In this document: piece by piece, positions 1-20,109 of the stretch
Layout of the letters: every line of letters starts with the position of its first letter
How positions within the stretch are numbered: the stretch's first letter is position 1
Source of the DNA: a virus
IMG/VR virus record: IMGVR_UViG_3300029286_000302
Span: 1 to 20,145 of that record
Direction: 5' to 3' (one strand)
DNA length: 20,145 nucleotides
Made by a program: the position numbers and the translations under genes
The notes under the pieces: generated by a model
What the model was told of the DNA's origin: nothing
Database searches by the model: none
Seen by the model: the letters and a program-made list of their open reading frames with translations, nothing else

Positions 1-493
1 TTCCTGAAGATCCACTAGTTCCAGATGTACCAACGCCAGATGTACCTGAAGTTCCACTAGACCCAGCAATACCGGATGTTCCACTAGTTCCGCTCGTACC
101 AACTCCAGATGTTCCACTAGTAAATATTACTCCATTTTTGTAGTAGTTTCCACTTACATCGATATTCGGTGCGTATAGTGTATTACCTGAAAAGATAAGA
201 TCTGGGGATGTTCCACCAGTTATAGATGTTCCACTTGTACCTGATGTACCATTAGTTCCAGTATCTCCAGATGTTCCACTAGACCCACTTGTTCCACTTG
301 AACCTGTTCCACCACTAGTACCAGATGTACCTGAAGTTCCAACTCCAGATGACCCAGAAGAACCACTAGTTCCGCTAGACCCACTCACACCTGATGTACC
401 ACTGGTTCCAGAAGTTACACCAGTGTAGGCGATAGATATTGGATCACCCTTAACAACTATTTTAGATATATCTGAATTTAATATTAGTCCCAT
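1..493 (-). CDS. Collagen-like tail fibre protein, N-terminal part (runs off the left edge)
   Basis: The minus-strand frame opens at ATG 493 and stays open to base 1, giving at least 164 residues with no stop, so the C-terminus is missing. A short unique head (about residues 1-25, starting MGLILNSDISKIVVKGDP) is followed by Gly-X-Y triplets, mostly GTSG, GSSG and GVGTSG. They are broken once, at about residues 95-125, by a unique segment (PDLIFSGN...NIDVSGNYYKNGV), after which the triplets resume. Gly-Thr-Ser triplet runs are common in fibres of Bacteroidota phages and should form a collagen-like triple-helical shaft. The gene lies 20 bases downstream of the PKD-LRR gene and last in this run of tail-tip genes, so a host-contact fibre is the likely role. 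The receptor-binding tip is outside the window. An upstream ATG at 503 is followed at once by a stop. Confidence 0.85.
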   Translation of the reverse strand, partial: MGLILNSDISKIVVKGDPISIAYTGVTSGTSGTSGVSGSSGTSGSSGSSGVGTSGTSGTSGGTGSSGTSGSSGTSGDTGTNGTSGTSGTSITGGTSPDLIFSGNTLYAPNIDVSGNYYKNGVIFTSGTSGVGTSGTSGTSGIAGSSGTSGTSGVGTSGTSGSSG

Positions 494-1803: not shown

Positions 1804-1812
1804 TATATAACG
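1804..1812 (-). promoter_or_regulatory. CGTTATAT core motif upstream of the 124-aa tail gene
   Basis: Read on the minus strand, CGTTATATA lies in a 37-base intergenic gap about 17 bases before ATG 1788, followed by more TA steps. It shares the core CGTTATAT with three other intergenic sites, near 15460, 7172 and 5843. Upstream there is an A-rich run as at the other sites, but the preceding TT of the best copies is AG here. It is the weakest member of the set. Confidence 0.35.
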
Positions 1813-1825
1813 CTTTTTATTTTTT

Positions 1826-3730
1826 TTAAACTATATAATGGTTAAGTACGAACTTTAAACTATCACCATACCTTATCGGTCTAGTTACAACATCAAATGG
1901 AGCCCCATAAATTCCAGAATACAAGTCTTGATAAACACTTTGAGTCATAATTCCTTGTGAAACTCCGTTTATAAAAGTCTCTAGCGTTCCATAAACTAGT
2001 GTCCCGTAACAATTATTTGCATAATATGACCAATTCAATGTAAACCCAGTAAGTCCATATATCGTATTATCAATTTGAGTAAATGTATTTGATGAAATAT
2101 ATGGTCCATCAGTTGTTTCCCATACCACTAAATTCGATAAATTATATCCACCATTATAAAATAGATCAACACTTGTTAATTTAGTGTGATGATATTCAGA
2201 ATTATCAGTCCCATTAAATTCCCATGTAATATTCGTATTACGGGGTGAAGTTCCACTAGGTGTTGGAGTTGGCGCAGGAGGACTAGGTGTTGGAGTAGTT
2301 CCAAAATTTCTAATCCTATTCATACTAACTGACTCCCAGACAAGATTGAGTAAATTATCATCTCCAATATTTGTTTCCATCGTGACCAGATATAATGGGT
2401 TATCATATCCAATACATATTTGGTTTTCATCAGCGTCTATCATGAACGCAATTGTCGGTGCCTGTTTGAACTTATTATTATTAAGCAAGAAACTTTTACT
2501 ATCAACTATAAGTCCTAAGTCAATTGCGGATAAAGATACCTGAATTTTTTTCCCGTAATTATACCCATTACTACCCTTTGATAAGTTTTCTGTGAATAGA
2601 ATATTTTCCCCGGTATTTAATACCTCAACCAATTGAACAATTTGCCCACCAATTGTTATAGTTTTATTTACCTTGTCCCATGTATCAATTACAACATCCT
2701 TATTTAACGCTCTGTAATTTATTGGATATTCAATAGTAGTTCCTGAAGTAACCATATTTCCAAGATATAATTTACTTATCTTCTCAGAATTGAACCCACA
2801 GGTACTCAATACTTTCCAATTACTCGGTGTAACCGAAGGAGTAGGTGTCGGAGTTGGTGTTGCACCTGGTATACTGGTTGCCGTAGGTGTCGGAGTTGGG
2901 GTCGTACTTCTAGTAGGTGTCGGAGTTGGGGTTGGAAGTACTATTGGTTCATCAGAGATATTAAAAGTTCCACCCTGATTAAATTTATGAATAGTATATG
3001 TTGCATCCTCAAAAACTGTTGTACCATTTCTTAATGAATAATATGGAAATTCAGATTTTCTTATTCTAAATAAAAATACACCGGATGCTCCGTTACATTT
3101 AATAACAGCAGGCATATCTAATTGGTTTCCACATCCACCACCACCAGTATTTGGAGTTGCCCCACTAAATGGAGACACAACTTGTCCTCCACCGTCAGTT
3201 GCCGTTCCTCGTTCTTCAGCGTAGGATCCATATGCAGCTCCACCACCACCAATTTTACCAATTATAGATCCAAATATTGGGAATGTATAACCTGGTCCTC
3301 CGTCATTACCATTACCAGGACCACCCATTCCACCACCTCCACCAGCAGCCCTATGATATGGGTTACCATCGTATAGCACATAATGAGTTCCTTCCCCGTT
3401 GAAGCCCTGAAGACCAATTCCACCTGATAAAATTTCGGTCAAAGATGTTCCTGCTCCACCACCGCATCCACCAGTGGATCCAGATAATAAATATCCATCT
3501 CCATGTCCACCACCAATTGCGGTAAAACCTGAAAATACTGAGTCCTGTCCATTTGTTTCAACTCCCGTCGATACTCCACCAGCACCAACCGTAACATTAA
3601 ATTGACCATTATTAATTGTAAGTCCTGTTTGGAAGATATATCCACCCGCTCCACCACCACCTGCAGGAAGGTTATTGTGAAATCCGCCAGCACCACCACC
3701 GGCAACTAAAAGAAAGTCTATTACTCCCAT
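1826..3730 (-). CDS. Mosaic tail-tip protein: Gly-rich domain, TPTP linkers, tube-like domain and C-terminal beta domain
   Basis: The 634-aa protein is modular. Residues 1-225 are a Gly-rich domain opening MGVIDFLLVAGGGAGG, with many G3-G5 runs and a closing SGVFLFRIRKSEF strand, like the glycine-rich adhesin domains of phage and bacterial surface proteins. Residues 265-303 are a Thr-Pro linker. Residues about 304-477 form an independent beta domain (NWKVLSTCGFNSEKISKLYL ... IAFMIDADENQICIGYD) that resembles the product of the neighbouring 159-aa gene and, more weakly, the tail tube protein. Residues 478-495 are a second PT linker. Residues 498-634 form a final beta-rich domain rich in Tyr, Trp and Asn. 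It starts 3 bases after the 159-aa gene ends. It is probably a multi-domain receptor-binding or tail-tip protein; the functions of the domains are inferred. Confidence 0.65.
   Translation of the reverse strand: MGVIDFLLVAGGGAGGFHNNLPAGGGGAGGYIFQTGLTINNGQFNVTVGAGGVSTGVETNGQDSVFSGFTAIGGGHGDGYLLSGSTGGCGGGAGTSLTEILSGGIGLQGFNGEGTHYVLYDGNPYHRAAGGGGGMGGPGNGNDGGPGYTFPIFGSIIGKIGGGGAAYGSYAEERGTATDGGGQVVSPFSGATPNTGGGGCGNQLDMPAVIKCNGASGVFLFRIRKSEFPYYSLRNGTTVFEDATYTIHKFNQGGTFNISDEPIVLPTPTPTPTRSTTPTPTPTATSIPGATPTPTPTPSVTPSNWKVLSTCGFNSEKISKLYLGNMVTSGTTIEYPINYRALNKDVVIDTWDKVNKTITIGGQIVQLVEVLNTGENILFTENLSKGSNGYNYGKKIQVSLSAIDLGLIVDSKSFLLNNNKFKQAPTIAFMIDADENQICIGYDNPLYLVTMETNIGDDNLLNLVWESVSMNRIRNFGTTPTPSPPAPTPTPSGTSPRNTNITWEFNGTDNSEYHHTKLTSVDLFYNGGYNLSNLVVWETTDGPYISSNTFTQIDNTIYGLTGFTLNWSYYANNCYGTLVYGTLETFINGVSQGIMTQSVYQDLYSGIYGAPFDVVTRPIRYGDSLKFVLNHYIV
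2841..2932 (-). repeat. Three near-identical 20-base repeats coding the TPTP linker
   Basis: Copies of GTAGGTGTCGGAGTTGGGGT (plus-strand reading) occur at 2841-2860 (one base different), 2883-2902 and 2913-2932, within the 634-aa gene. They encode the Thr-Pro linker around residues 267-300. Related shorter versions at about 2258-2298 encode the second linker. The unit spacing differs (42 and 30 bases). These are coding repeats, not a CRISPR array. Confidence 0.8.
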
Positions 3731-3733
3731 ATA

Positions 3734-4213
3734 TTATCGTATTATATTGTTGATGACATAAGTACTTTCAATACCGGTAAGTAAATTGGAACTGAAATTA
3801 CTGATGAAATTAAAACTAAACTGGTTATTTTCTAGTGAATATACCACTACTTTTGCTCCGTATCTCCAAGCGAGAGTCCAATAATTATCATTCGCGTCAA
3901 TAAATATTACAACATATTTTCCTGTCAGGATTTCCGCAACATTATTCCAATAATTCATATCGTTATTTTGGATGATAATTGAGATACTTTCTTCAAATGT
4001 TTTTCCGTTGGAAGCATCAATTAACTTTTGAGAGTATCTGAAGTTTACGGACTCCGTTTCAATTTCTCTCCATACATTGGTTAACCCATTATAGGAAGAT
4101 ATTGTAACCATATCAGAGTTATATGTAGGATAAATTGAGGAATTCCATTCAGTTATGAATAATTTAACGATCTCGATGTTTGAATAAGAACAATTTCCCA
4201 ATATTGAAGACAT
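3734..4213 (-). CDS. Small tail protein, tube-like fold suspected
   Basis: The 159-aa protein has no signal peptide or transmembrane helix. The N-terminus (MSSILGNCSYSNIEIVKLFI) and the order of features parallel the tail tube gene two terminators upstream. Both have an early Cys-containing GNC/GVCDYS segment followed by a statement-like 'I/VEKLW/F' strand. In mid-protein both have 'YSQKLIDASNG' or 'FSDDLVVNGSRR' before a long helix-strand pair. Near residues 95-125 this protein reads YVVIFIDANDNYWTLAW, against LVAFVKGSDGKVRAFGV in the tube protein. The match is in pattern rather than identity. In many siphophages a second tube-like protein forms the distal tail ring, so this is a candidate for a Dit-like or tail-tip ring subunit. 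It lies downstream of the hairpin at 4264-4292 and 3 bases before the 634-aa mosaic gene. Confidence 0.5.
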   Translation of the reverse strand: MSSILGNCSYSNIEIVKLFITEWNSSIYPTYNSDMVTISSYNGLTNVWREIETESVNFRYSQKLIDASNGKTFEESISIIIQNNDMNYWNNVAEILTGKYVVIFIDANDNYWTLAWRYGAKVVVYSLENNQFSFNFISNFSSNLLTGIESTYVINNIIR

Positions 4214-4263
4214 AATTTTAATGTATATTAATATAACTCAAAACCCTGAACTTGATGAAAATG

Positions 4264-4292
4264 AAAAACCCAGTCCGTCACGAACTGGGTTT
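4264..4292 (-). terminator. Intrinsic terminator after the tail tube gene
   Basis: On the minus strand AAACCCAGT (4292-4284) pairs perfectly with ACTGGGTTT (4274-4266). The stem is extended inside by a T-G wobble, then C-G and G-C, leaving a TGA loop, and the T-tract runs on to 4264. The wobble would be an A-C mismatch on the plus strand, so the structure suits minus-strand RNA. It lies about 40 bases after the stop of the tail tube gene and before the 159-aa gene. Confidence 0.75.
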
Positions 4293-4331: not shown

Positions 4332-4838
4332 TTATACCAATCCTTTTGTAATGGCGAAAGCCGCATTTACAAAACTTGCTTTTCCTAAAGAAGATCCTGC
4401 TAAAGTTATCGCGATGTTACCATCGTTTCCAGCTGCAGTACCACTGGTGTCTGTCATTACGGTTGTTCTCAATCCAGTACCTTTAACACCGAAAGCTCTA
4501 ACTTTACCATCACTACCTTTTACGAAGGCAACTAAGTTGGAAAGTCCGAGATCTTCTAAAGTATCAAGGATAGTGGCATCGATAGAACCAATACCAAAGT
4601 TTATTGTCTGCAAGAAATTTCTGCGTGATCCGTTTACAACGAGATCATCACTAAAAGTTGCAGTGTCAAGAGCAGGTTCGATACTAAACAATGTTCCAGA
4701 AGTAAATCCTGTAATTTCTCCTGATGCATTATATGTAACGCCGGTTACGCTTGCCTTATTCGCAAACCAAAGTTTTTCAACTCCAGATGAGCTATAGTCA
4801 CAAACGCCAACTATTCCACTAACTAATTCACATCCCAT
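4332..4838 (-). CDS. Probable major tail tube protein
   Basis: The 168-aa protein is rich in Gly, Ala, Thr and Ser. It starts MGCELVSGIVGVCDYSSSGVEKLWFANKASV and continues with NASGEITGF, then an FSDDLVVNGSRRNFLQTINFGIG strand pair, a helix SIDATILDTLEDLGLSNLVAFV (residues 85-106), a KGSDGKVRAFGVKG hairpin, and a C-terminal TAAGNDGNIAITLAGSSLGKASFV. This architecture is characteristic of major tail proteins in phages of Bacteroidota, where 'helix, L-V-V-F-V-K-x-x-x-G-K, GLRxT...GTAxGDxNG' recurs. It follows the capsid gene and is flanked by terminator-like hairpins on both sides, as expected for two abundantly made virion proteins. The start is the second of two nearby ATGs (4838 and 4833 are in different frames). 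Assignment is by pattern and context. Confidence 0.65.
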   Translation of the reverse strand: MGCELVSGIVGVCDYSSSGVEKLWFANKASVTGVTYNASGEITGFTSGTLFSIEPALDTATFSDDLVVNGSRRNFLQTINFGIGSIDATILDTLEDLGLSNLVAFVKGSDGKVRAFGVKGTGLRTTVMTDTSGTAAGNDGNIAITLAGSSLGKASFVNAAFAITKGLV

Positions 4839-4872: not shown

Positions 4873-4898
4873 AAAAGGGACCCATTTTCATGAGTCCC
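4873..4898 (-). terminator. Intrinsic terminator or attenuator after the capsid gene
   Basis: On the minus strand GGGACTCA (4898-4891) pairs with TGGGTCCC (4884-4877) around the loop TGAAAA, with one T-G wobble, and is followed by TTTT (4876-4873). The hairpin begins 8 bases after the stop of the capsid gene and ends about 35 bases before the tail tube ATG. The wobble is again only compatible with minus-strand RNA. The T-tract is short, so partial read-through is likely. Confidence 0.6.
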
Positions 4899-4905
4899 AT
4901 TTTAT

Positions 4906-5814
4906 TTATCCGCGACTTACAGCTTCAGCTTCGTAAATTAATTTTACATCAACTTTACCCTGAAGTTTCAAACGAATTGAATTGTCTCCAGTAGTTTGTC
5001 TCATATCCAATATCTGCATTTGGGAGAAATTATCCATTGCACCAACACCGATTGCGATGTTTTTAGGATTTAAAACATAAAGTTTATTGTCAGCAATTTT
5101 ACCAACAGTATATATTTCAATACCATCATAAGTAGCCGGCATTTGGTCAGCAGGGGTATTAATACCTAATGACATAAGTGCTTGTTTGTAAAGTAACAAA
5201 GATTTGTTATTCATAAACACTTTAACCTGTGATAAGTCTTCAAGAACTGTTTCAGGTAAAGCTGCAAAAGCTGCGTCTACTTCACCAATGATGTTCGACT
5301 TAGTGAAAGTGTTTCCAGTTAATGCATGAGTTGTGATCTGAGCGTCAATACCGTTGAAAAGTAATACTTCAGTACTACCATTACCAGATACACCATTCCA
5401 AATAGCGTTCTCGAAAGAGCTATTCATAGCGTCCTGTAATACACCAACCAATGCTGCGTTGAAGTCAGCAGTTAAGTTCTGTGAGTTAGCGTTAGCACTG
5501 TCAACAGCATTCCAAAGAGCTTCCAAGTCATTGTAACAAAGTTCAACATTGATGAACATTGTTTTAGGGATCAACTGAACTTCTCCAGCTACCAATGTAC
5601 CAGCAGCAGTGAATGAACAGTTGTCACCAACTTGTACCAATGAACTACCAGTTAATTTTGCCACATAAGCAGACTGTTTAATGTCCTGAACGATAGTTGC
5701 ACCTGAGTCAGCAGTTCTGTTTTTAAGGAATGCTCCAAGGATGTAATTCAACGCCTGTTCTCCAATATATGACTGACTATCAGTCAAAGCTGTTGCGAAA
5801 TCTAATTTTCTCAT
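4906..5814 (-). CDS. Major capsid protein (HK97-like fold)
   Basis: The 302-aa protein has the layout of an HK97-fold capsid subunit. It has a short N-arm (MRKLDFATALTDSQSYIGEQ), a central strand-rich region, and a long spine-like helix at residues about 112-138 that ends in FENAIWNG (135-141), a position where many capsid proteins have 'E-x-x-i-l-n-G'. Near 195-240 is VKVFMNNKSLLLYKQAL followed by YDGIEIYTVGKI. The C-terminal KNIAIGVGAMDNFSQMQILDMRQTTGDNSIRLKLQGKVDVKLIYEAEAV forms the closing P-domain strands. It directly follows the protease-scaffold gene, the standard pairing for capsid assembly. Its leader carries the CGTTATAT element and a hairpin follows the stop, both consistent with strong expression. 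There is no obvious N-terminal delta domain, in line with a separate scaffold in the gene upstream. Confidence 0.85.
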   Translation of the reverse strand: MRKLDFATALTDSQSYIGEQALNYILGAFLKNRTADSGATIVQDIKQSAYVAKLTGSSLVQVGDNCSFTAAGTLVAGEVQLIPKTMFINVELCYNDLEALWNAVDSANANSQNLTADFNAALVGVLQDAMNSSFENAIWNGVSGNGSTEVLLFNGIDAQITTHALTGNTFTKSNIIGEVDAAFAALPETVLEDLSQVKVFMNNKSLLLYKQALMSLGINTPADQMPATYDGIEIYTVGKIADNKLYVLNPKNIAIGVGAMDNFSQMQILDMRQTTGDNSIRLKLQGKVDVKLIYEAEAVSRG

Positions 5815-5841
5815 ATTTTTATTTTTTTTATTTATTCGTAC

Positions 5842-5871
5842 TTATATAACGAATATTAATTTTTATTTTTA
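5842..5871 (-). promoter_or_regulatory. Candidate phage promoter upstream of the capsid gene (CGTTATAT element)
   Basis: This 30-base stretch matches 7171-7200 at 29 of 30 positions. The minus-strand core TTCGTTATATAA follows an A-rich run and lies about 30 bases before ATG 5814. The core is flanked by a perfect inverted repeat, ATTCGT (5854-5849) and ACGAAT (5839-5834), that is absent from the other copy. It overlaps the stop codon of the protease gene. There is no Bacteroidota TAnnTTTG box here, so reading by a phage or alternative sigma factor is more likely; this part is inference. Confidence 0.55.
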
Positions 5872-6558
5872 CTTACGGTTGTTAGCTTTATATACGGCCT
5901 TCTCGTAAGCACTCATTTTGGAATAATCTTTTACAGGAACTTCAGGTGTCAAGATAGGTTCACCAATTGGTTCGTTCAATTTTTCTTCCAATTCCATTTT
6001 TTGTCTCGAAAGTTCAGCAACCTGTGACTTGAGTAAATTAGTTTCAGAACTAACTTCAGCTTCGGTAACTTCACCTCCAACAACACATACTTTTATCCAA
6101 TATTCACCATCGTTTATACCTACAACATCACCAATAGTTTTTGACTTAACATCAACAACTGGGACTTCGGGTGCAACTACGGGTTCTACTTCGGGAACTT
6201 CCACTTCTGGAACTTCAGGAACTAATGGATCTACCAATGCAACGGCTTCCGATAAAGTTTCTTCTATTGGAACTTCGGGAGTTGCTTCTGGTACTACTGG
6301 TTCTACTACGGGTAATTCTCTTACTTCAACAAGATTTGATGACTCATCAACTACAACGACACCCATTTCAGTTGTAAATTCACCTTGTCCAACAGGATTT
6401 GTAGTTTCATTACCATTCGCGTCAACTTCAACTTTGTTAACTGGTAATCCTACTTCAGACCATTCAATTTCAAAACCTAATTCCGGTACTAGACTACTTT
6501 CAAATACATCTAAGCGGAATAAATTAATTATCTTATCTAAAATACTTTTTTTATTCAT
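5869..6558 (-). CDS. Possible nested scaffold protein from an internal start in the protease gene
   Basis: An in-frame ATG at 6558 (Met191 of the protease-scaffold protein) is preceded on the minus strand by about 30 bases that are almost all A, with a few G and T. This is the kind of A-rich, structure-free leader seen before genes in this window. Starting here would give a 229-aa product without the protease domain, beginning MNKKSILDKIINLF. Nested scaffolds made this way are well known, for example lambda C/Nu3. An alternative internal ATG is at 6591. The A-run may simply encode the Lys-rich linker, so this is a suggestion. Confidence 0.35.
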   Translation of the reverse strand: MNKKSILDKIINLFRLDVFESSLVPELGFEIEWSEVGLPVNKVEVDANGNETTNPVGQGEFTTEMGVVVVDESSNLVEVRELPVVEPVVPEATPEVPIEETLSEAVALVDPLVPEVPEVEVPEVEPVVAPEVPVVDVKSKTIGDVVGINDGEYWIKVCVVGGEVTEAEVSSETNLLKSQVAELSRQKMELEEKLNEPIGEPILTPEVPVKDYSKMSAYEKAVYKANNRK

Positions 6559-7128
6559 TTTTTCTTTTTCTTTTTTACTTTTATTATTCATCTGTACTAA
6601 TATTGAGTCCAAATAACTTTCAATAGAAAATCCTCTAAATTCCCCGGATAATACTTTCTCAAATACTTTTGGGTCATTTATTTTGTAGGCCACCATCCAT
6701 GTCCCGATCTTCGTATCTGGTATTCCTTTGTTCTTTAGGTCCTCAATTTGTAGTTCAGAGTCAACAATATAACTCGCTACCATATAAGCATCGATGAATT
6801 TATTTTCATTGTGATCTAAATTCATATTTTTAGTTTGTTGTTCTCTATGGAATTTATAAACAATTTTCTTTATTGTTTCTTTACTGAATTTTCCATAATA
6901 TTCAAATTGTCCGTCATTTCTATAAATAAGAAGATCAGGTTGAATGGCAACACCAAGGACTACTTGTTCGTACTGGTTAAATTTAACATACTTAGGACTG
7001 GGCTTATCTTTATCGAAGGCGACAAACATAGACTCCATAGCGGGATCGTTAACCATCGATATACATTTTACCCCACTATCATCATCATCGTTAATTAAAA
7101 ATTCAAAAACAGGAAGTTTATGAGACAT
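5869..7128 (-). CDS. Prohead protease fused to scaffold-like domain (XkdF-like)
   Basis: The 419-aa protein has a protease-like N-terminal domain (about 1-175). Residues 101-108 hold NMNLDHNE with a candidate catalytic His106. GTWMVAYKINDP (142-153) leads to GEFRGFSIES (162-171) with candidate nucleophile Ser168. This His ... G-x-W-x-V-x-K ... F-x-G-F-S-I order is typical of XkdF-like serine prohead proteases. After a Lys-rich linker (180-195), the rest is scaffold-like: an acidic Pro/Val/Glu region with many PEV repeats (about 260-335), a short beta segment, and a coiled coil (about 364-388, LLKSQVAELSRQKMELEEKL). The gene sits directly upstream of the capsid gene, as expected for a maturation protease that also supplies the scaffold. 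The gap upstream carries the CGTTATAT element. Catalytic residues are assigned by motif only. Confidence 0.75.
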   Translation of the reverse strand: MSHKLPVFEFLINDDDDSGVKCISMVNDPAMESMFVAFDKDKPSPKYVKFNQYEQVVLGVAIQPDLLIYRNDGQFEYYGKFSKETIKKIVYKFHREQQTKNMNLDHNENKFIDAYMVASYIVDSELQIEDLKNKGIPDTKIGTWMVAYKINDPKVFEKVLSGEFRGFSIESYLDSILVQMNNKSKKEKEKMNKKSILDKIINLFRLDVFESSLVPELGFEIEWSEVGLPVNKVEVDANGNETTNPVGQGEFTTEMGVVVVDESSNLVEVRELPVVEPVVPEATPEVPIEETLSEAVALVDPLVPEVPEVEVPEVEPVVAPEVPVVDVKSKTIGDVVGINDGEYWIKVCVVGGEVTEAEVSSETNLLKSQVAELSRQKMELEEKLNEPIGEPILTPEVPVKDYSKMSAYEKAVYKANNRK

Positions 7129-7170
7129 ATTTTTGGATAATAAGATATTTATTATTACATTTGCAATATA

Positions 7171-7200
7171 TTATATAACGAATACTAATTTTTATTTTTA
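7171..7200 (-). promoter_or_regulatory. Candidate phage promoter upstream of the protease-scaffold gene (CGTTATAT element)
   Basis: This is the second copy of the 30-base element at 5842-5871 (one mismatch), in the 100-base gap between the tape measure and protease genes. The minus-strand core TTCGTTATATAA is followed by TATATTGCAAATG, and ATG 7128 lies about 45 bases downstream. The gap contains no gene on the minus strand. Its position at the tail-to-head module boundary suits a promoter that starts a protease, capsid and tube transcript. Confidence 0.55.
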
Positions 7201-12236: not shown

Positions 12237-14564
12237 TTAAGTACTTATGTTGTTCTCTGAAATTGTTTCTCTAAATATTAACTGAATAGAATACTGGTTT
12301 TCGTTGCTAGATTTAGTAGCAGTCTGTCCAATAACGGTAATATAATTTTGATGTACATCAGTATAGTTATAAATTTTATTACTTTGGAGTAACCCCATCA
12401 GATAATAATAAACATCCTCAGATATAATTCCAGTATTTACAACATATGTTTTTGTGAACATAGTATTGAAAATTGAGTTATATTGGAAGCCCAGACCCGC
12501 ACTACCATCATCACTAATTGGATATGGTTTCTGGTATGAACTTCTGGATATTTCCTGCTGTTCCTGACGCTCACCAACGAATGAAAATGTTTCATATGTC
12601 CCAAGTTTACTAAGGAACGCTACATTGAAGTAAGATGGTTGTTCGTCAATTTCCAATAAGTAGGATTTTTTCTCCGTGTATAATGGACTGATATGTACAT
12701 GACGGATCCAGAATTCTACTTTTCTTATTTTATTACCGGATGTTTCATAAGACGATAGTCCTAATTTATTGTATCCCATATTTAAACAACATACTCCACC
12801 AAAATTATTTAATGTAGTTGTTGGTATTGAGAAGAAATTTACATTAGAATAAGTTGTACCATCGTACATATAGATATTACCCCTTACAGCCATTGCAAAC
12901 CCATAATTTTTTGGAATTACAACATAATAAAGTTCATCACTGTCCCTGTGGGAATATTTTGTATTGGGAGCGGTATTTAAGAATGGAGTATCATATCTCC
13001 AAGTCGTCCCTGAAAGACCTCTATATGACTCCATAGTATTACTATCCTCAAAATTCAATGCGGAATTAATTACCCACCCATATGATGTAATACCTTTATA
13101 TCTCTTTTTCTTTGTATTACTATTTGGAACTAGAGGATATTTTTCACCATATTTGAGGTAATAACTACACATCATGTCCGCAAGATATGTTGCACCAGTG
13201 AAATTAAAGTCGAATTTTGAAGTGTTAACAAAATTTTTCAACGATGAACTCAAGTCAAATTGATGCTGGTTAGTTTTATTGTATGGAAGTTCTAGTTCAA
13301 GCACACGTTTGTAATTTACTGGGTTTGGAGTGTCCCCATATTTCAGTTCTTCATCAACAAATAATTCAGTATAGATACTATAATTTGAAACCAGAGCACC
13401 ATCGAATTCAGTTACCCCACCCTGAGTATTTGTAAGGGTTAAATTAGACCCAGTAATTGTTACATTACTTGTACTTAGATCATACATATTCCCAGTTTCT
13501 TTCGACCTTAAAGTAATTGTACTTCCTGAAGATGAGATATAATATAACCTAGATATAATTGGATCTTTCTGTAATACTTCTGAAAAACTTGTGGTAATTT
13601 CTTCCCCGGAATTCGTTCCAACTGGATTACCAATTTCATCTGATAAAATACTTTCAAGAAAATATGTACTTCTGTCTGGGTATTCTTTACTTCTAAACTC
13701 AGCGGTATATACATATGGATATACAAGGTTGAATACAACCACGACATCACTTATAGTTCCAGTTACTCTAAACTCGTTAATACTTACCAACGGATTAACT
13801 GAGTTGGTACTAGTATTTACATTTAAGATAATAGGATTTTCAACCGCAACAATTTTATCGGTTGGGGATATGGTTTGAAAGTCTGAGGTTCTAAATTCAC
13901 CATCGAATATTTGTACTTGTACCTGTGAAGAACATATCCCCTCAACAGAACGAACATAATATATTCCTGCAGTAAGTCCCGAAAATACATGAGTACGAGT
14001 AGTTCCAGTTTGAGACACCCCATTTAAAAACCAATTTATTGTTGTTCCAGTAGCTCCACTTACTCCAGCATAAATTTGTCCATCTGAACCACCTCTAATT
14101 GATGGAGATGTTGCTGTGGAGCCAGTAACTGATAAATGACAAGCAGGAGGGGTGTAACATACTGGCTCGTCTTGTTGAGGAAGGAGTACTAATTCACTTG
14201 TATCAGTATCGTAAGCCCATTGGGTATTTCCCTGTTCAATAACTTTTAAACACTCATGGTCAAATTGGTATGTAGTTACACCCGCGGGTATGGTAATTTG
14301 TACTGGTACATCATATGTATATGGAAACCCAGGTTGTAATATTCCATTGATAATAATTGAATACTGTTGTACACAGGTATATTCAATAAAGAATTCTTCT
14401 GCGGCTGCAACATCTAATGTAACATCAATTACTTGGTTGTATATATTATATAATTTTCCACCCAACCAATATTGCTCAGATAAATTACATCCGCCAGCCG
14501 GAGCTAGTTCGACACTTATTTCTACTGAAGTTGCTCCACTACATACTATATAAGTTTCTGCCAT
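12237..14564 (-). CDS. Large tail structural protein with an SprB-like repeat domain
   Basis: The 775-aa product is unrecognised overall, but the layout can be read. Residues 1-135 are a Cys-containing beta region. Residues about 142-220 form one SprB-like/Ig-like domain: SIRGGSDGQIYAGVSGATG (155-173), then INWFLNG, then FSGLTAGIYYVRSVEGICSS (194-213). This is the 'G-G-x-D-G-x-I ... W ... G-L-x-A-G-x-Y-x-V-x-x-x-x-x-x-C' signature of surface adhesin repeats of gliding Bacteroidota. The remainder (about 225-775) is rich in Tyr, Asn, Ser and Thr, with no coiled coil, and resembles large baseplate or tail-tip proteins. The gene lies between the neck-like protein and the hub-like protein, separated by 10-11 bases on each side. 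It is probably part of the tail tip, with the SprB-like domain possibly contacting the host surface; the role is inferred. Confidence 0.5.
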   Translation of the reverse strand: MAETYIVCSGATSVEISVELAPAGGCNLSEQYWLGGKLYNIYNQVIDVTLDVAAAEEFFIEYTCVQQYSIIINGILQPGFPYTYDVPVQITIPAGVTTYQFDHECLKVIEQGNTQWAYDTDTSELVLLPQQDEPVCYTPPACHLSVTGSTATSPSIRGGSDGQIYAGVSGATGTTINWFLNGVSQTGTTRTHVFSGLTAGIYYVRSVEGICSSQVQVQIFDGEFRTSDFQTISPTDKIVAVENPIILNVNTSTNSVNPLVSINEFRVTGTISDVVVVFNLVYPYVYTAEFRSKEYPDRSTYFLESILSDEIGNPVGTNSGEEITTSFSEVLQKDPIISRLYYISSSGSTITLRSKETGNMYDLSTSNVTITGSNLTLTNTQGGVTEFDGALVSNYSIYTELFVDEELKYGDTPNPVNYKRVLELELPYNKTNQHQFDLSSSLKNFVNTSKFDFNFTGATYLADMMCSYYLKYGEKYPLVPNSNTKKKRYKGITSYGWVINSALNFEDSNTMESYRGLSGTTWRYDTPFLNTAPNTKYSHRDSDELYYVVIPKNYGFAMAVRGNIYMYDGTTYSNVNFFSIPTTTLNNFGGVCCLNMGYNKLGLSSYETSGNKIRKVEFWIRHVHISPLYTEKKSYLLEIDEQPSYFNVAFLSKLGTYETFSFVGERQEQQEISRSSYQKPYPISDDGSAGLGFQYNSIFNTMFTKTYVVNTGIISEDVYYYLMGLLQSNKIYNYTDVHQNYITVIGQTATKSSNENQYSIQLIFRETISENNIST

Positions 14565-14574
14565 AATTATTAAT

Positions 14575-15030
14575 TTATTTATTTCCTATTGTAACTGTTA
14601 GGTCAGTTGCTATTTGATCCGATATTTGTACACTCAGATCTTCACTTATGTATTCACTGATAATATCCAATGACGCACCGATCATCGGGTCGATAAATTT
14701 CTTTGCTTTAATTCCTATCTTGTAGATACTATTCTGGATTGCGAACGCCAAAGAGTTTATTGTTTGCCCGGGTCTTGGTCTAATATTTTTCTTCTTTATC
14801 CACTTTATCAATGCCTCAACTGGAACTTTCTTAACCCTCGGTCTTCTCCCTGAGTCAACCCATTTGAAATAGTTATTGGCTACTAGTATCCACGCATTGT
14901 CCTTGTAAGTCCATTCAATACTATCAATAAGGTCTGTCTTACCCAACTTATAGATAATTAATATCTGGTCACAGGCAGCAGTTAATTCCTTTAGAATTTC
15001 TTTATTTATATCTACAGCTATTACAGACAT
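14575..15030 (-). CDS. Probable neck / tail-completion protein (HK97 gp10-like)
   Basis: The 151-aa protein has an N-terminal helix, followed by a strand pair (IEWTYKDNAWILVANNYFKW), then WVDSGRRPRVKKVPVEALIKWIKKKNIRP (about residues 58-86). Next comes NSLAFAIQNSIYKIGIKAKKFIDP (about 93-116) and an amphipathic C-terminal helix. The order 'Y/F-x-x-W-V-x-x-G-R-x-P ... V-x-x-L-x-x-W-I ... AFAIxxxIxxxGI/TxxxxFIDP' is the usual pattern of HK97 gp10-like tail-completion proteins, which join head and tail. It overlaps the tail-terminator-like gene by 10 bases (start 15030, previous stop 15021), implying coupled translation. Basic residues near 65-86 are typical. Identification is by pattern. Confidence 0.55.
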   Translation of the reverse strand: MSVIAVDINKEILKELTAACDQILIIYKLGKTDLIDSIEWTYKDNAWILVANNYFKWVDSGRRPRVKKVPVEALIKWIKKKNIRPRPGQTINSLAFAIQNSIYKIGIKAKKFIDPMIGASLDIISEYISEDLSVQISDQIATDLTVTIGNK

Positions 15031-15440
15031 TCTCTATTTGAGTAAAGTTTAATATCGAGTCTTATTCCACATGCGTTATCCGCGTTGATGGTCTTAACAC
15101 TTAACCCTGTTGGGATATCCATTAATTTATAATCTGGATCTCGTTTTAGATAGTACAGGAATTTATCGGCAAGGACTTCACACTCGGATATCTTTAGGAT
15201 CTCATCATCGGTATTATCGGATTTGGGTAATTCCAAGAAGTCAATACTGAAAGTAAATGTCTTGGTAAGTTTGTTTACGGTGTTATAGTCAACTAGGACT
15301 GGCATCTCGAACCAACAGTTTGGATATTTATCACCTTTACCCAGTGACATATCAAAGGTATTCCCTATGTAGAAACTCTTACAATCTAGTTTATTGAGAG
15401 CAATATCCTTACAGGTGTCAACTAAATTTTGGATAGTCAT
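15021..15440 (-). CDS. Probable tail terminator protein
   Basis: The 139-aa protein begins MTIQNLVDTCKDIALNKLDCKSF, an amphipathic helix, followed by a short strand and a loop. It then has a central beta sheet (YPNCWFEMPVLVDYN, then KTFTFSIDFLELPKSDN), a helix EILKISECEVLADKFLYYL (about residues 80-98) and a closing strand pair ending in GIRLDIKLYSN. An N-terminal helix, a sheet with D-F-L-E-L, and a central A-D-K-F-L-x-x-L helix is the usual arrangement of tail terminators in Bacteroidota phages. Their job is to cap the tail tube and join it to the neck. It overlaps the next gene by 10 bases and is preceded by a 33-base gap that holds a CGTTATAT element and an inverted repeat. The call is by pattern. 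Confidence 0.5.
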   Translation of the reverse strand: MTIQNLVDTCKDIALNKLDCKSFYIGNTFDMSLGKGDKYPNCWFEMPVLVDYNTVNKLTKTFTFSIDFLELPKSDNTDDEILKISECEVLADKFLYYLKRDPDYKLMDIPTGLSVKTINADNACGIRLDIKLYSNRECL

Positions 15441-15442
15441 AT

Positions 15443-15460
15443 TTCATATCATTATATGAA
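15443..15460 (-). repeat. Perfect 7-bp inverted repeat abutting a start codon
   Basis: TTCATAT (15443-15449) and ATATGAA (15454-15460) are exact inverted repeats around a 4-base loop. They lie 2 bases upstream of ATG 15440 and directly downstream of the CGTTATAT element. The repeat could be a protein-binding site near the start of the tail-terminator-like gene or a hairpin that limits its translation. AT-rich DNA produces such repeats by chance fairly often. Confidence 0.4.
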
Positions 15461-15470
15461 TATAACGAAA
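15460..15470 (-). promoter_or_regulatory. CGTTATAT element upstream of the tail-terminator-like gene
   Basis: Minus-strand TTTCGTTATAT lies in the 33-base gap between the chaperone-like gene and ATG 15440, 20 bases from the start. It shares TTCGTTATAT with the elements at 7171 and 5842, including the preceding A/T-rich run, though it lacks the AA that follows the core in those copies. Confidence 0.45.
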
Positions 15471-15473
15471 TTC

Positions 15474-16277
15474 TTATTTAGTTAATTTATTTCTTCTGAG
15501 ACTGCTTATACGCAATTTCTTCCAGATCGTATTTGAGGTTTTCTTTGAGCGTTTTGTAGGAGTAAAATTGAAATATCTCCCCAACAGACTTTTTATATAC
15601 CAGAGATAAATTTGGTAATACCCAATCCGCAATTTCGTAAGCAAAGATATACCACTCTCCGCCTTTCGTGCTTTCATTATATTGCTTAATTCTGTCAATT
15701 TGGCTTGGATTAATATGTCTTGATGTTCCAACACCGAAGACAGTCGGGTAAAATTGTTGTAAGCGTTTAGACTGGTCAAAAAAAAACCCTCAATGTTCTT
15801 CGCATCAGTTATTGGTAACTCGTCAAACATCCTTGCTCGTTCATCCAAATTGATACTATCCAGGGTTTCACTTTCTTTCTTACATAATACTGCTATCATC
15901 CTAGACAGTCCTCTTACTGGTGCATCCTTATAGTTATGAAGTATTGTTTGGATACTCACCCAGTCCTCAAATTTCTGTTCCACAATGTCAGCGTTACAAC
16001 TATATGTCTTACCAAAATATGTGAATGAATTGGTTATTTCTGGTTGGTATTCGTGGTAGATAAATTCCATAATGGACATTATGTTCTGAACTTCGGGTAC
16101 ATTACCGGATTTTAATTCCTCCATCGGGATACCAGTATACCCACATATGATGGAGATAATTGGTGCGTCGGGGACAATTTGACTATAGTCATCAACATCA
16201 ACCACCATCTTTATAGTTACCTCTCCCCAATTTTCGGGTACCTGGTAATCCTTGTCGTTAAATTTAATTGTCTTCAT
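15474..16277 (-). CDS. Tail-assembly-chaperone-like protein
   Basis: The 267-aa product begins MKTIKFNDKDYQVPENWGEVTIKMVVD, a typical start for tail assembly chaperones of Bacteroidota phages ('I-x-F-x-x-K-x-Y-x-V-P-x-x-W-x-E-V-T'). Later blocks fit too: IICGYTGIPMEELKSGNV (about 44-60), FTYFGKTYSC, FEDWVSIQTILHNY (about 102-117), LSRMIAVLCKK (about 123-134), and DERARMFDELPITDAKNIEGFF (about 145-166). The last third, from Leu167, changes character: it becomes very basic and aromatic near residues 215-267. From a T9 run at 15778-15786 onward, the -1 frame is also open to 15487 and looks more protein-like at its end. A programmed -1 frameshift or a base-count error are both possible. The gene is far from the tail tube and tape measure genes, which is unusual for this family. 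Confidence 0.6.
   Translation of the reverse strand: MKTIKFNDKDYQVPENWGEVTIKMVVDVDDYSQIVPDAPIISIICGYTGIPMEELKSGNVPEVQNIMSIMEFIYHEYQPEITNSFTYFGKTYSCNADIVEQKFEDWVSIQTILHNYKDAPVRGLSRMIAVLCKKESETLDSINLDERARMFDELPITDAKNIEGFFLTSLNAYNNFTRLSSVLEHQDILIQAKLTELSNIMKARKAESGISLLTKLRIGYYQIYLWYIKSLLGRYFNFTPTKRSKKTSNTIWKKLRISSLRRNKLTK
15487..15786 (-). other. Alternative -1 reading frame inside the chaperone-like gene (possible frameshift extension)
   Basis: On the minus strand, re-reading one T of the run at 15778-15786 opens a frame that has no stop until TAA 15489-15487. It contains no ATG of its own, so it could only be reached by frameshift. Its end reads as a coherent helix: EIADWVLPNLSLVYKKS, then VGEIFQFYSYKTLKENL, then KYDLEEIAYKQSQKK. 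In the zero frame the same DNA gives a run such as KRSKKTSNTIWKKLRISSLR. Two candidate slippery sites exist: GGT TTT TTT TTG (15778-15788), and CGA AAG in frame at 15668-15663. A switch at the second would give a 263-aa product. Confidence 0.45.
15663..15668 (-). other. Candidate slippery site CGA AAG
   Basis: In the zero frame of the chaperone-like gene, codons 204-205 read CGA AAG, a hexanucleotide known to support -1 frameshifting in bacteria (described for IS1222) and similar to the lambda G-T site GGGAAAG. A -1 slip here would continue as GGEWYIFAYEIADWV. I did not find a clear downstream stimulatory hairpin by eye. Confidence 0.35.
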
Positions 16278-16318: not shown

Positions 16319-16347
16319 TGGACCTTTTATTCTAGTGGACCTTTTAT
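16319..16347 (-). repeat. Two copies of a 12-bp direct repeat at the end of the large terminase gene
   Basis: TGGACCTTTTAT occurs at 16319-16330 and again at 16336-16347, 17 bases apart. The second copy covers the terL stop codon, so the gap between terL and the chaperone-like gene includes a short duplication. I see no hairpin here, and its role is unknown. It may be a replication slippage product. Confidence 0.6.
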
Positions 16348-17783
16348 CTATAAATTGGCGCACTATTACCACTATTTAAATATTTGTCAACCGCATAATA
16401 CATAACATCCACAATATCATCCGCTTTACTATATGGAAATGCGGTAACCTGTTGTAAAAATAATGAATTACTGGCATCCTTGAGTAACATACATCTCTTC
16501 GACTCTAATTTTGCGGTGATAGAATTTACCCTTACGAACTTTCCATCCTTTGGAGAAGATAGTTCAACCACATTAAGACTGGTTTCTTTCTTCAATTGTT
16601 GAACAATAGATTTCCCACTAGCTTTAGGCTCGATCCATATTCTACCTCCACTATTAATTTGAGTTGAAATTTCCTGTATCTTACGACATAATTCGGGGAA
16701 CTCCAGATAAAATGTATATACTTTTTTAATTAAGATATTATTACCAAATTTTCCTGCAACAAGAATAGCGGACGCGTCATTCTTTATATCACTGGTATAC
16801 GCTGAGTCAATAAATATTTCCCAATTGATATTACTCATAGTCTGAGTGTCGTATTCAACAACTGGGAACCAGTCTCTTTTTATTATCGTACCCTCATTAC
16901 TACTTGGAGACTGTTGATATTGTGTTTGATAAGTTCGACTTCCTAAATTTAACCTATATTCCTGACATACTTTCTTATTAAATCTGTCAGGCCATAGTAG
17001 TCCATCAATATATTTTTCTTTTAATTCTATCGGAGATACAATCCCGGTATCTTCCATTGGAATACATATGTGGTTATATTGTCCTGGCTGAGTAAGTAAT
17101 AAATGTCCACATAGGTCGGATTCATCTGTACGCTGTCCGATTATAAACCTTATTCCAACCACAGGATCATTTAACCTATTGAATATTACATCTCGATATG
17201 TCTCTATAACATTCTTTAATTTCAGTTCCGATATCTCATTTGTCTTCTGTACATCATCGATAATTATTATGTCCGCTCCCGCACCAGTTACTGACCCATG
17301 AGTTCCATAACTTTCTCTAGTCCCACCCTTGGAATTACTATATGATGTCTTTCTGTTATCATCCGAATTAATTGTATATATATTTCCGTAATGACTTGTG
17401 TACCACTCACTTGTAATTAGTAGTCTTGTTTTATACCCGAATGTACTTGCTAGTATATCTGAGTATGAGATAGTCATAAATTTCAGATGCGGGTAGTCGA
17501 TCCAAGCCCAGGCGTTGAGACATATAGACCATATGAGGGACTTCATACTTCTTGGACAAAGATTAATGATGTAGTCTTTTTCCTTTGGGATACCTTTACC
17601 AACATTCTCTATCTGTTCCTGAGCAACATTACATAGGTATTCAATATTCCAATTCCATTTAAAGTCTGTACTGGGTTCCAGAACTTTTACCGCAACTTGA
17701 ACAAACTCATAGAAAGACCTACGATAAATTTCCGACTCAATTTGTCTACGAATATCCTGCTTCTGTTCTGGAGTAAGCTCCAT
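16344..17783 (-). CDS. terL: Terminase large subunit
   Basis: The 479-aa protein has both halves of a packaging motor. The ATPase has a Walker A-like CPRSMKS (76-82), an unusual form with Met in place of the usual Gly, and a Walker B-like stretch DIIIIDD (171-177). FIIGQRT (213-219) is the likely coupling motif. The C-terminal RuvC-like nuclease has FIDSAYT (324-330) with Asp326, IWIEPKASG (382-390) with Glu385, and ADDIVDVMYYAVD (454-466) with Asp455/456/459 as metal-binding candidates. Between them, FNRLND and LLWPDRF (262-268) are typical of large terminases. The N-terminal IRRQIESEIYRRSFYEFV (11-28) is the usual helical lead. It follows the small-subunit-like gene by 11 bases. The stop lies inside a 12-bp direct repeat. 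Confidence 0.92.
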   Translation of the reverse strand: MELTPEQKQDIRRQIESEIYRRSFYEFVQVAVKVLEPSTDFKWNWNIEYLCNVAQEQIENVGKGIPKEKDYIINLCPRSMKSLIWSICLNAWAWIDYPHLKFMTISYSDILASTFGYKTRLLITSEWYTSHYGNIYTINSDDNRKTSYSNSKGGTRESYGTHGSVTGAGADIIIIDDVQKTNEISELKLKNVIETYRDVIFNRLNDPVVGIRFIIGQRTDESDLCGHLLLTQPGQYNHICIPMEDTGIVSPIELKEKYIDGLLWPDRFNKKVCQEYRLNLGSRTYQTQYQQSPSSNEGTIIKRDWFPVVEYDTQTMSNINWEIFIDSAYTSDIKNDASAILVAGKFGNNILIKKVYTFYLEFPELCRKIQEISTQINSGGRIWIEPKASGKSIVQQLKKETSLNVVELSSPKDGKFVRVNSITAKLESKRCMLLKDASNSLFLQQVTAFPYSKADDIVDVMYYAVDKYLNSGNSAPIYR

Positions 17784-18458: not shown

Positions 18459-18766
18459 TATTTCTTTCCCTTTCCTTTAGGTCTTCCAGCTTTCTTTGCT
18501 GGAGATGGAAGTTTTATATCTGAAGTTTGTTTTCCAGTTTCAGATTGTTCGTTAATAAGTGTTGTTGGCATATCTATCGTATTTAATAGGTCGTCACGAT
18601 TGAACATAACATACCTGGTTATTGCCAGAATTTTAGCTCTATTTGAAGTATCGATCCCGATAATTTTATTGGGGAGTGCGTTGTATGCTTCATTAAGATC
18701 TACTGGTGTCATTCCATTTTGTAATTGATGGAAACATTTCAAAATTAATGCTTGTTCTGGTTTCAT
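18458..18766 (-). CDS. Small protein with C-terminal AT-hook-like motif
   Basis: The 102-aa product starts at ATG 18766 (MKPEQALILKCFHQLQNGM). A longer frame from 18856 exists but runs through the upstream 55-aa gene in another frame, so this start is preferred; it lies 4 bases after that gene's stop. The N-terminal half is helical (ALILKCFHQLQ, then DLNEAYNALPNK, then NRAKILAITRYVMF), and the end is Lys-rich with KKAGRPKGKGKK, where GRPKG is a typical AT-hook core. AT-hooks bind the minor groove of AT-rich DNA. Such a protein may condense or regulate phage DNA. It appears related to the following 84-aa protein through the D-x-x-x-x-Y-x-x-LP-x-K block. Function unknown. Confidence 0.6.
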   Translation of the reverse strand: MKPEQALILKCFHQLQNGMTPVDLNEAYNALPNKIIGIDTSNRAKILAITRYVMFNRDDLLNTIDMPTTLINEQSETGKQTSDIKLPSPAKKAGRPKGKGKK

Positions 18767-18770
18767 AAAT

Positions 18771-18938
18771 TTAGTTTTTATTTTTATTATAGTAATCCTG
18801 AATGACTTCTCGTAGTCTACCCGATTTACATTTACACCCAACCCATTTTGATCCATATATTTCTTTGTAGACTTCCATGTATTCAGACCAATATGAATTT
18901 ACATCTTTTTCAAGTAATATTCTAACTCGTTCTATCAT
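18771..18938 (-). CDS. Small Cys-x-Cys protein (55 aa), unknown function
   Basis: A minus-strand frame of 55 codons opens at ATG 18938 and ends TAA 18773-18771. It begins MIERVRILLEKDVNSYWSEY and ends with KWVGCKCKSGRLREVIQDYY plus a short Asn/Lys tail. The G-C-x-C pair in a charged helical context suggests a small metal-binding or regulatory protein; similar small Cys-x-Cys proteins occur in Bacteroidota phages. The start overlaps the end of the sigma-like gene (ATGA at 18938-18935), and the following gene starts 4 bases after its stop. This tight packing, coupled starts and protein-like composition support a real gene. Confidence 0.6.
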   Translation of the reverse strand: MIERVRILLEKDVNSYWSEYMEVYKEIYGSKWVGCKCKSGRLREVIQDYYNKNKN

Positions 18939-19516
18939 ATTAATATAACTCTTTCTCCATATAATATATAGTTTTGTAAATTTTCCTTTAAATCTTTTTT
19001 AATACATTTTATAGTGTTACTGACTGCCGTCATACTATACCCAGTCGCCTCAGATAGTTGTCTGTAGTTGAGATGTTTCCTCTTGAGTAAATAGTAGGTT
19101 TTGAAGATCATCACAGACTTAGGATCATAATATTTATCGATGAAGTCATAAATGTATGTCACCAGGCACTGGTTCTCGTGGTATGTTTCTTGATCCTGTT
19201 CACTCTGTGTTTGTGCTAGTAATAGCATTTCTTCAATGTGGGAGTAATAATTGTTGTCCAGCACGTCCACAGACATTCTCTTCTTTTTTTTACGATATTC
19301 GGACTTAAATGTGTTCATGATCGTCACACGAACAAAATTCATATAATCCGTTCCTTGGTAACCATTAATTTCTATTCTATCCCTACATTTTATGTAGCAG
19401 TCGTGAAGTAATGACTCATAGTCTTCTCTTGGATCTATGCTTTTACAAAACCCTCTAAGATAACGATATTCTTTTACATAGAACTCATCGTATAATTTAA
19501 GTTCATTACAATGCAT
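18935..19516 (-). CDS. Sigma-70-family-like sigma factor
   Basis: The 193-aa protein, started at ATG 19516 (a TTG at 19522 is a possible alternative), looks like an ECF-type sigma factor. The region-2-like part (about 10-80) contains LHDCYIKCRDRI (37-48), then NFVRVTIMNTFKSEYRKKKKR (60-80), where the basic end is typical of region 2 DNA contacts. A variable acidic linker follows (about 81-130). The region-4-like part (about 134-182) has MIFKTYYLLKRKHLN followed by a helix-turn-helix, YRQLSEATGYSMTAVSNTIK (151-170). Such proteins in phages redirect host RNA polymerase to late promoters. It overlaps the next gene by 4 bases and precedes terminase. No anti-sigma gene is nearby. The family call is reasonably firm; a late-gene role is inferred. 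Confidence 0.7.
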   Translation of the reverse strand: MHCNELKLYDEFYVKEYRYLRGFCKSIDPREDYESLLHDCYIKCRDRIEINGYQGTDYMNFVRVTIMNTFKSEYRKKKKRMSVDVLDNNYYSHIEEMLLLAQTQSEQDQETYHENQCLVTYIYDFIDKYYDPKSVMIFKTYYLLKRKHLNYRQLSEATGYSMTAVSNTIKCIKKDLKENLQNYILYGERVILI

Positions 19517-19563: not shown

Positions 19564-20109
19564 CTATTTATTTTTTCTAAGTATATCATATTCCCTCGGA
19601 GCTTTCTTGATGAAATTAAATACTTGTTCATCAACTAGGATATCATAGACGATATCTTCTGATACTTTTTTCATTATAGGTTCCATCTGATCTCGATCAT
19701 ATTGGATGTCTTTTACAAATAAGGTGATATCAAGATTAAGGAACTGGGGTCTACTCTGAGTTTCGAGTCTTTGTTTTCTGGTTGTATCGAGATCCACGAT
19801 ACATTTTGAATAGAAGAATGGATATTTTTTTGCCAGTTGTTCTACATAGTTTCTTAAATTTCTAACTGTCAAATTAACTATACGGTTGATATCGTGGTCT
19901 TCAATTTCTGGATCTATCTGTATCCATGCCCCGAAGTCTATTTGAATACTTTTATATCGAAATACATTTGGAACATACACATTGAAAGTTATTCCTTCTA
20001 CTTCCGGTAATGTGAAACCTTTTCCAAATTTTACTTTATTGGTGAATTCTTTTTCTTTTGGAACTACAGGAGTTCTTTCGACTATTGGATGTATTCTTTT
20101 TCTACCCAT
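19564..20109 (-). CDS. Conserved-looking protein of unknown function (181 aa)
   Basis: I do not recognise this protein. The N-terminus is basic (MGRKRIHPIVERTPVVPKEK). The rest alternates strands and charged helices: FKYKS-like FRYKSIQIDFGAWIQIDPEI (about 50-70), then DINRIVNLTVRNLRNYVEQL (about 73-93), FFYSKCIVDLD, and a final helical part including DRDQMEPIMKKVSEDIVYDI. No signal peptide or membrane helix is present. The start is ATG 20109, in an A-rich context with a second ATGGGTA 11 bases upstream in another frame. It is first in the visible run and 41 bases or more before the sigma-like gene. It may be part of a regulatory or early-late switch cluster, which is only a guess from position. 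Confidence 0.7.
   Translation of the reverse strand: MGRKRIHPIVERTPVVPKEKEFTNKVKFGKGFTLPEVEGITFNVYVPNVFRYKSIQIDFGAWIQIDPEIEDHDINRIVNLTVRNLRNYVEQLAKKYPFFYSKCIVDLDTTRKQRLETQSRPQFLNLDITLFVKDIQYDRDQMEPIMKKVSEDIVYDILVDEQVFNFIKKAPREYDILRKNK

Follow-up and report, generated by a model that had tools for sequence, protein, structure and literature searches.

What is the 30-bp element that stands in two nearly identical copies upstream of the protease and capsid genes of this phage, and which protein would read it? The window analysed here, 20,145 bp long, is the whole IMG/VR record IMGVR_UViG_3300029286_000302, a fragment of a tailed-phage genome. All recognised genes of the window lie on the minus strand, including a terminase (16344-17783), a head maturation protease (5869..7128; Peptidase_S78_2, E 1.5e-14), a capsid-type gene (4906..5814; phrog_1623 virion structural protein, E 1.4e-6) and tail genes. 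The nearest matches to the terminase are in a Chryseobacterium phage, a Croceibacter phage and phage vB_RanS_PJN03 (34-36% identity), and those to the capsid in Nonlabens phages (22%), suggesting, as matches of this kind can without proving it, a Bacteroidota host.

The two copies of the repeat, at 7171..7200 (copy 1, upstream of the protease gene) and 5842..5871 (copy 2, upstream of the capsid gene and overlapping the last codon of the protease gene), are both on the minus strand, and a recount gave the 29 of 30 identical bases originally reported. The repetition was confirmed, but not the 30-bp size: the repeated unit is smaller, namely GTTATAT, often extended to CGTTATAT, in A/T-rich surroundings. 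The GTTATAT cores occupy 7173-7179 and 5844-5850, with spacings of 44 nt to the ATG at 7128 and of 29 nt to the ATG at 5814, respectively. Searching both strands of the window, we detected CGTTATAT on the minus strand only, at these two sites (7173 and 5844), at 15460..15467 (19 nt before the ATG of a 139-aa gene, 15021-15440) and at 1805..1812 (16 nt before the ATG of a 124-aa gene, 1414-1788); the plus strand has no copy. All four are intergenic and on the coding strand, as the original prediction had it, and its spacing of 17 to 45 bases to the ATG is nearly right (measured 19, 44, 29 and 16 bases for 15460, 7173, 5844 and 1805). Its count of four sites was too low, the window holding at least five: a gap copy at 4231..4237 (minus strand), GTTATAT without the leading C, had been missed; it is separated by 17 nt from the ATG of gene 3734-4213. 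The claim that no copy lies inside a gene is correct for CGTTATAT but not for the 7-mer, which has intragenic sense copies at 6767, 10270, 13542 and 18943, the last at the 3' end of the sigma-like gene discussed below.

A comparison of gaps with background had been proposed as a check, and GTTATAT was found to be over-represented in sense gaps of the window and, independently, of a close relative, G001 (IMGVR_UViG_3300032156_000044, a 35.6-kb IMG/VR phage brought in by a capsid profile search). It is present in 5 of 13 sense gaps of the window (expected 0.15) and in 7 of 14 of the G001 rightward cluster (expected 0.19), and none of 2000 dinucleotide-preserving shuffles of the gaps alone reached the count in either genome; CGTTATAT occurs four times in window sense gaps against 0.05 expected. 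Fisher tests of the enrichment gave p = 1.4e-6 for the window alone and 2.5e-9 in a second test. Antisense GTTATAT was absent from all gaps counted in the window and the G001 cluster. In a de novo ranking of gap 7-mers GTTATAT comes first in the window and in G001; when the gene caller and the score were changed, it came second in the window to the overlapping CGTTATA. The loose 12-mer TTCGTTATATAA, with up to 3 mismatches, is not enriched window-wide (61 versus 55.8 expected), so that the signal is made by exactness and position together. This null result would suit a chance origin in A/T-rich gaps, or the recent copying of a single gap, and so would an exact 20-bp match in the unrelated record L004, showing that A/T-rich coincidences occur. 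Since the gap shuffles never reach the observed counts in either genome and the core is retained at orthologous gaps, such an origin is highly improbable. L004, the sole IMG/VR match to the exact 20-mer, was itself rejected as a chance A/T-rich coincidence; its genes look unrelated.

G001 is the only close relative found. Single-sequence searches with the capsid and the terminase returned no relatives, profile searches did, and a scan of genome contigs for relatives found none. G001 is 63% identical to the window in the capsid, 51-52% in the sigma-like protein and 39% in the terminase. Loss in relatives that keep the genes had been named as refuting evidence; in G001, 5/5 gap sites of the window have a counterpart ahead of the orthologous gene. 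The G001 sites are at 16411 (orthologous to 15460, before the 139-aa gene, with a well conserved leader), 24868 (to 7173, protease), 26381 (to 5844, capsid), 27967 (to 4231) and 33907 (to 1805, 124-aa gene). The 30-bp identity is lost in G001; the core and the A/T-richness are kept. The gaps before genes 15474-16277 and 4332-4838 have no GTTATAT in either genome, the best match being at most 5/7.

G001 has extra sites at 2576 (before a 129-aa gene), at 19710 (where the gap is only 11 nt long in the window) and, on the minus strand, at 9234 (upstream of the replication-initiation gene), 15694 (before an 89-aa gene, L114 15406-15675) and 5637 (before a 93-aa gene). The expected restriction to late genes did not hold, as sites also precede the replication-initiation gene and the 89-aa minus-strand gene; in view of the former, the element is not late-only. 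The 89-aa gene, absent from the window, is inserted in the G001 rightward cluster with a GTTATAT site of its own. A sixth shared site at the junction of the sigma-like gene and the next gene (window 18943, G001 11151) was dropped, because the two genomes carry the copy at different codons within that 3' end.

The distance from GTTATAT to the ATG ranges from 14 to 104 nt, and this variable spacing is unlike a ribosome signal. Two terminator-like hairpins were detected on the minus strand of the window, each by a consensus scan only: one at 4266..4292 (12-bp stem), after gene 4332-4838 and before the 4231 site, and one at 4877..4898 (9-bp stem), after the capsid gene. The tail-gene site lies behind a terminator-like hairpin in both genomes (window 4231, G001 27967). 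Alignment of 14 sites revealed no conserved -35 box or other second box, A/T-richness only, so the element would be -10-only. An A stands 19 nt after the G in 12/14 sites and could mark the transcription start, a regularity that would fail correction for the many positions inspected.

Folding of ten leaders detected no shared structure, and most have no stable fold. The capsid leader is the exception: a hairpin is predicted in both genomes (z -2.6 and -4.6), the dyad TTCGT(TA)...(TA)ACGAA is kept in both (window 5828-5858, minus strand; L090 9945-9970, plus strand), and the whole leader is unusually conserved between the window and G001. The dyad may provide the most expressed gene with additional control or stability. 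The capsid hairpin and the sense-only orientation would also agree with an RNA-level element of the 5' leader, such as a translation enhancer, a stability hairpin or a processing site. We regard that possibility as very unlikely, because no fold is common to the leaders, the distance to the ATG varies widely, and a position just behind terminator-like hairpins is expected of a promoter.

The sense-only orientation, the placement after a terminator-like hairpin and the conservation at orthologous gaps despite the variable distance to the ATG together argue for a promoter. A one-element, orientation-dependent promoter fits best, and a putative phage-specific promoter very probably accounts for the motif. 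In a promoter employed repeatedly within the structural-gene cluster, GTTATAT would be the recognition element, acting like a -10 element with no conserved -35 box; RNA would begin a few bases further on, so that most leaders would be short, and the tail-gene site would restart transcription behind the terminator-like hairpin. The start at GTTATAT, the reader and the timing are what we infer from sequence.

The candidate reader is the gene at 18935..19516 (minus strand), which the original prediction called sigma-factor-like. Its match to TIGR02937 (E 8.7e-10; residues 9-180 on model positions 3-165 of 165) confirms this and indicates the sigma-70/ECF type; the gene is conserved in G001, where the match extends over the full model (E 9.3e-11), both matches falling slightly under the curated cut-off (38.5 bits against 42.9 for the window protein). 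The AlphaFold model has low confidence (mean pLDDT 67), and its first eleven PDB matches are sigma factors, including one integrative sigma-like model, none of them significant; a PDB sequence search with the protein gave weak spurious matches only. In G001 the sigma gene heads the rightward structural cluster, adjoining a divergent leftward cluster. The ORFs of the window and of G001 revealed no obvious RNA polymerase gene, the window being a fragment and only part of the ORFs having been searched for families. RNA polymerase with a non-host sigma, most likely the phage ECF-type sigma on the host core enzyme, would open GTTATAT. Reading of the promoter by the product of 18935-19516 in particular is, to us, an evenly balanced proposition. 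Taken as a whole, that the motif is a phage-specific promoter element, most likely opened by host core polymerase with a phage ECF-type sigma, is on balance probable.

A host sigma, primary or alternative, could instead read the same promoter element, the phage sigma-like protein then having another role. All the promoter evidence counts equally for this alternative, a host alternative sigma could use an A/T-rich -10-like box, and G001 has sites before the replication-initiation gene as well. The core is, as originally stated, unlike the primary promoter element of Bacteroidota, TAHHTTTG (PMC6847099): this element is in none of the window's sense gaps and stands directly before two ORFs of the G001 leftward cluster. 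The phages compared here share the inferred kind of host and the A/T-rich surroundings with such TTTG / TAnnTTTG promoters, but the core is unrelated. Moreover, terminase relatives without a sigma gene have little or no gap GTTATAT. We therefore consider reading by a host sigma rather unlikely; the data are consistent with host-type promoters in the G001 leftward cluster, the structural cluster being served by a second specificity.

GTTATAT could also be bound by a phage activator or repressor and not be a polymerase contact; the sigma-like protein might, for instance, act in the manner of RinA/ArpU. In Firmicutes phages the late activators of the RinA/ArpU type are encoded by a sigma-4-like HTH gene, classically located just before the terminase genes. 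In the window a few small genes separate the sigma-like gene from the terminase genes downstream of it, which agrees with such a role, as does the dyad at the capsid site of both genomes. However, the core lacks palindromic symmetry and has a strict sense orientation, the dyad occurs at the capsid site only, and no separate promoter was recognised beside the sites. In contrast to RinA/ArpU, the present protein aligns with the sigma-70/ECF model over the whole length, and there are many sites at several genes, not one late promoter. Action as an activator or repressor site is improbable.

Distant relatives bear on the phage sigma as reader. A sigma-70/ECF match was found in 15 of 25 protease-related records searched. 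The terminase-only relatives searched yielded none, the two positives there being capsid relatives; the sigma-type gene thus travels with the capsid/protease lineage. The protease relatives, mostly at 31-41% identity, have no gap GTTATAT except two copies in L169, and the terminase relatives have at most one gap copy each. As distant sigma-bearing relatives do not have gap GTTATAT, the link of the sigma to this motif comes from one lineage. Another pattern, CGAACA-(1-9)-[AT][CT]ATAATA, occurs 17 times in 11 protease-related records, always sense and mostly before the protease and the next gene, while its reverse has no match in the same records; the pattern was picked after viewing those gaps, and the 11 records are interrelated, so independent events are few. 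The copy at the protease may share bases with the end of the preceding gene.

Within a sister group TCGAACA-N-TTACATAATATA is repeated in the gaps before the protease and the next gene, near 9975 and 10910 in L121, L128, L131 and L141 and at 9042 and 9979 in L147. These phages carry a sigma-type gene whose product is strongly diverged from the window sigma. The right half of their pattern, TTACATAATATA, and the word TTATATAATATA found at two window sites differ at a single base; TTATATAATATA taken alone shows no enrichment and has one further copy within a window gene. The different motif and the sigma divergence fit a parallel divergence of sigma and promoter, without being proof of it. Tentatively, and at somewhat less than even confidence, we propose a probable Bacteroidota phage family with a fast-diverging ECF sigma and subgroup-matched gap promoters, GTTATATWAWATA in the window and G001 and TCGAACA-N-TTACATAATATA in the sister group. 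If this is true, the family would provide a set of naturally occurring sigma/promoter pairs, each diverting a host polymerase from the TAnnTTTG that it usually recognises; with its different motif, the sister group offers a way to test the co-evolution of sigma and promoter.

A -10-only, A/T-rich element combined with a phage sigma is known from the T4 late promoters (TATAAATA, gp55), which the present element resembles in both respects. T4 gp55 needs co-activation by the sliding clamp and its motif differs from GTTATAT; the sigma here has sigma-2- and sigma-4-like parts over the ECF model. The closest analogue is the promoters of phiEco32, SU10 and 7-11, read by a phage ECF sigma (gp36 in phiEco32). 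In phiEco32 the motif tAATGTATAtA lies 6-8 nt before the starts of middle and late genes (PMC4331800; PMC4281155). Common to both systems are a short single-block motif with few gap copies, a phage-encoded ECF-type sigma, a role, presumed for the present phages, at middle as well as late genes, and structural and functional genes in opposed clusters (PMC4331800; PMC4281155). They differ in the motif, GTTATAT as against TAATGTATA, and in the probable Bacteroidota host; no anti-sigma gene was identified here, and the present system is known from its sequence. A tblastn search with the window and G001 sigma proteins against the phage collection gave no match, thus none to gp36, so the window/G001 system may work like phiEco32 by analogy without belonging to that system.

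Transcription programmes of Bacteroidota phages are little described, and within our partial coverage of the open literature we found nothing on point about their sigma factors or promoters. The reading proposed here, if true, would give a compact promoter system for Bacteroidota and make transcription units directly readable from metagenomic genomes of this phage group.

Several further observations were made in the relatives. G033 and G034 (24% capsid identity) have a sigma-like gene and, judged by eye only, another upstream motif. In L118/L119 (G034), TTTGTAACAAAA...TAGTTTTAATTAT is repeated upstream of genes 3613-3945, 5978-7102, 14905-15516 and 18689-18916 at a nearly fixed distance to the ATG; it is partly like host-type TTTG / TAnnTTT promoters, and a related sequence is present in G033. 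Genes 13532-13861 and 13906-14271 of L117 (G033) are adjacent and similar, with nearly identical upstream regions, and look like a tandem duplication including the putative promoter. A collagen-like GTSGTSG repeat gene is found at window 1-493, L114 1-572 and L090 17879-19172. Both ends of the G001 contig lie inside a gene of this kind, so the assembler may have opened a nearly complete circular G001 genome at the repeat.
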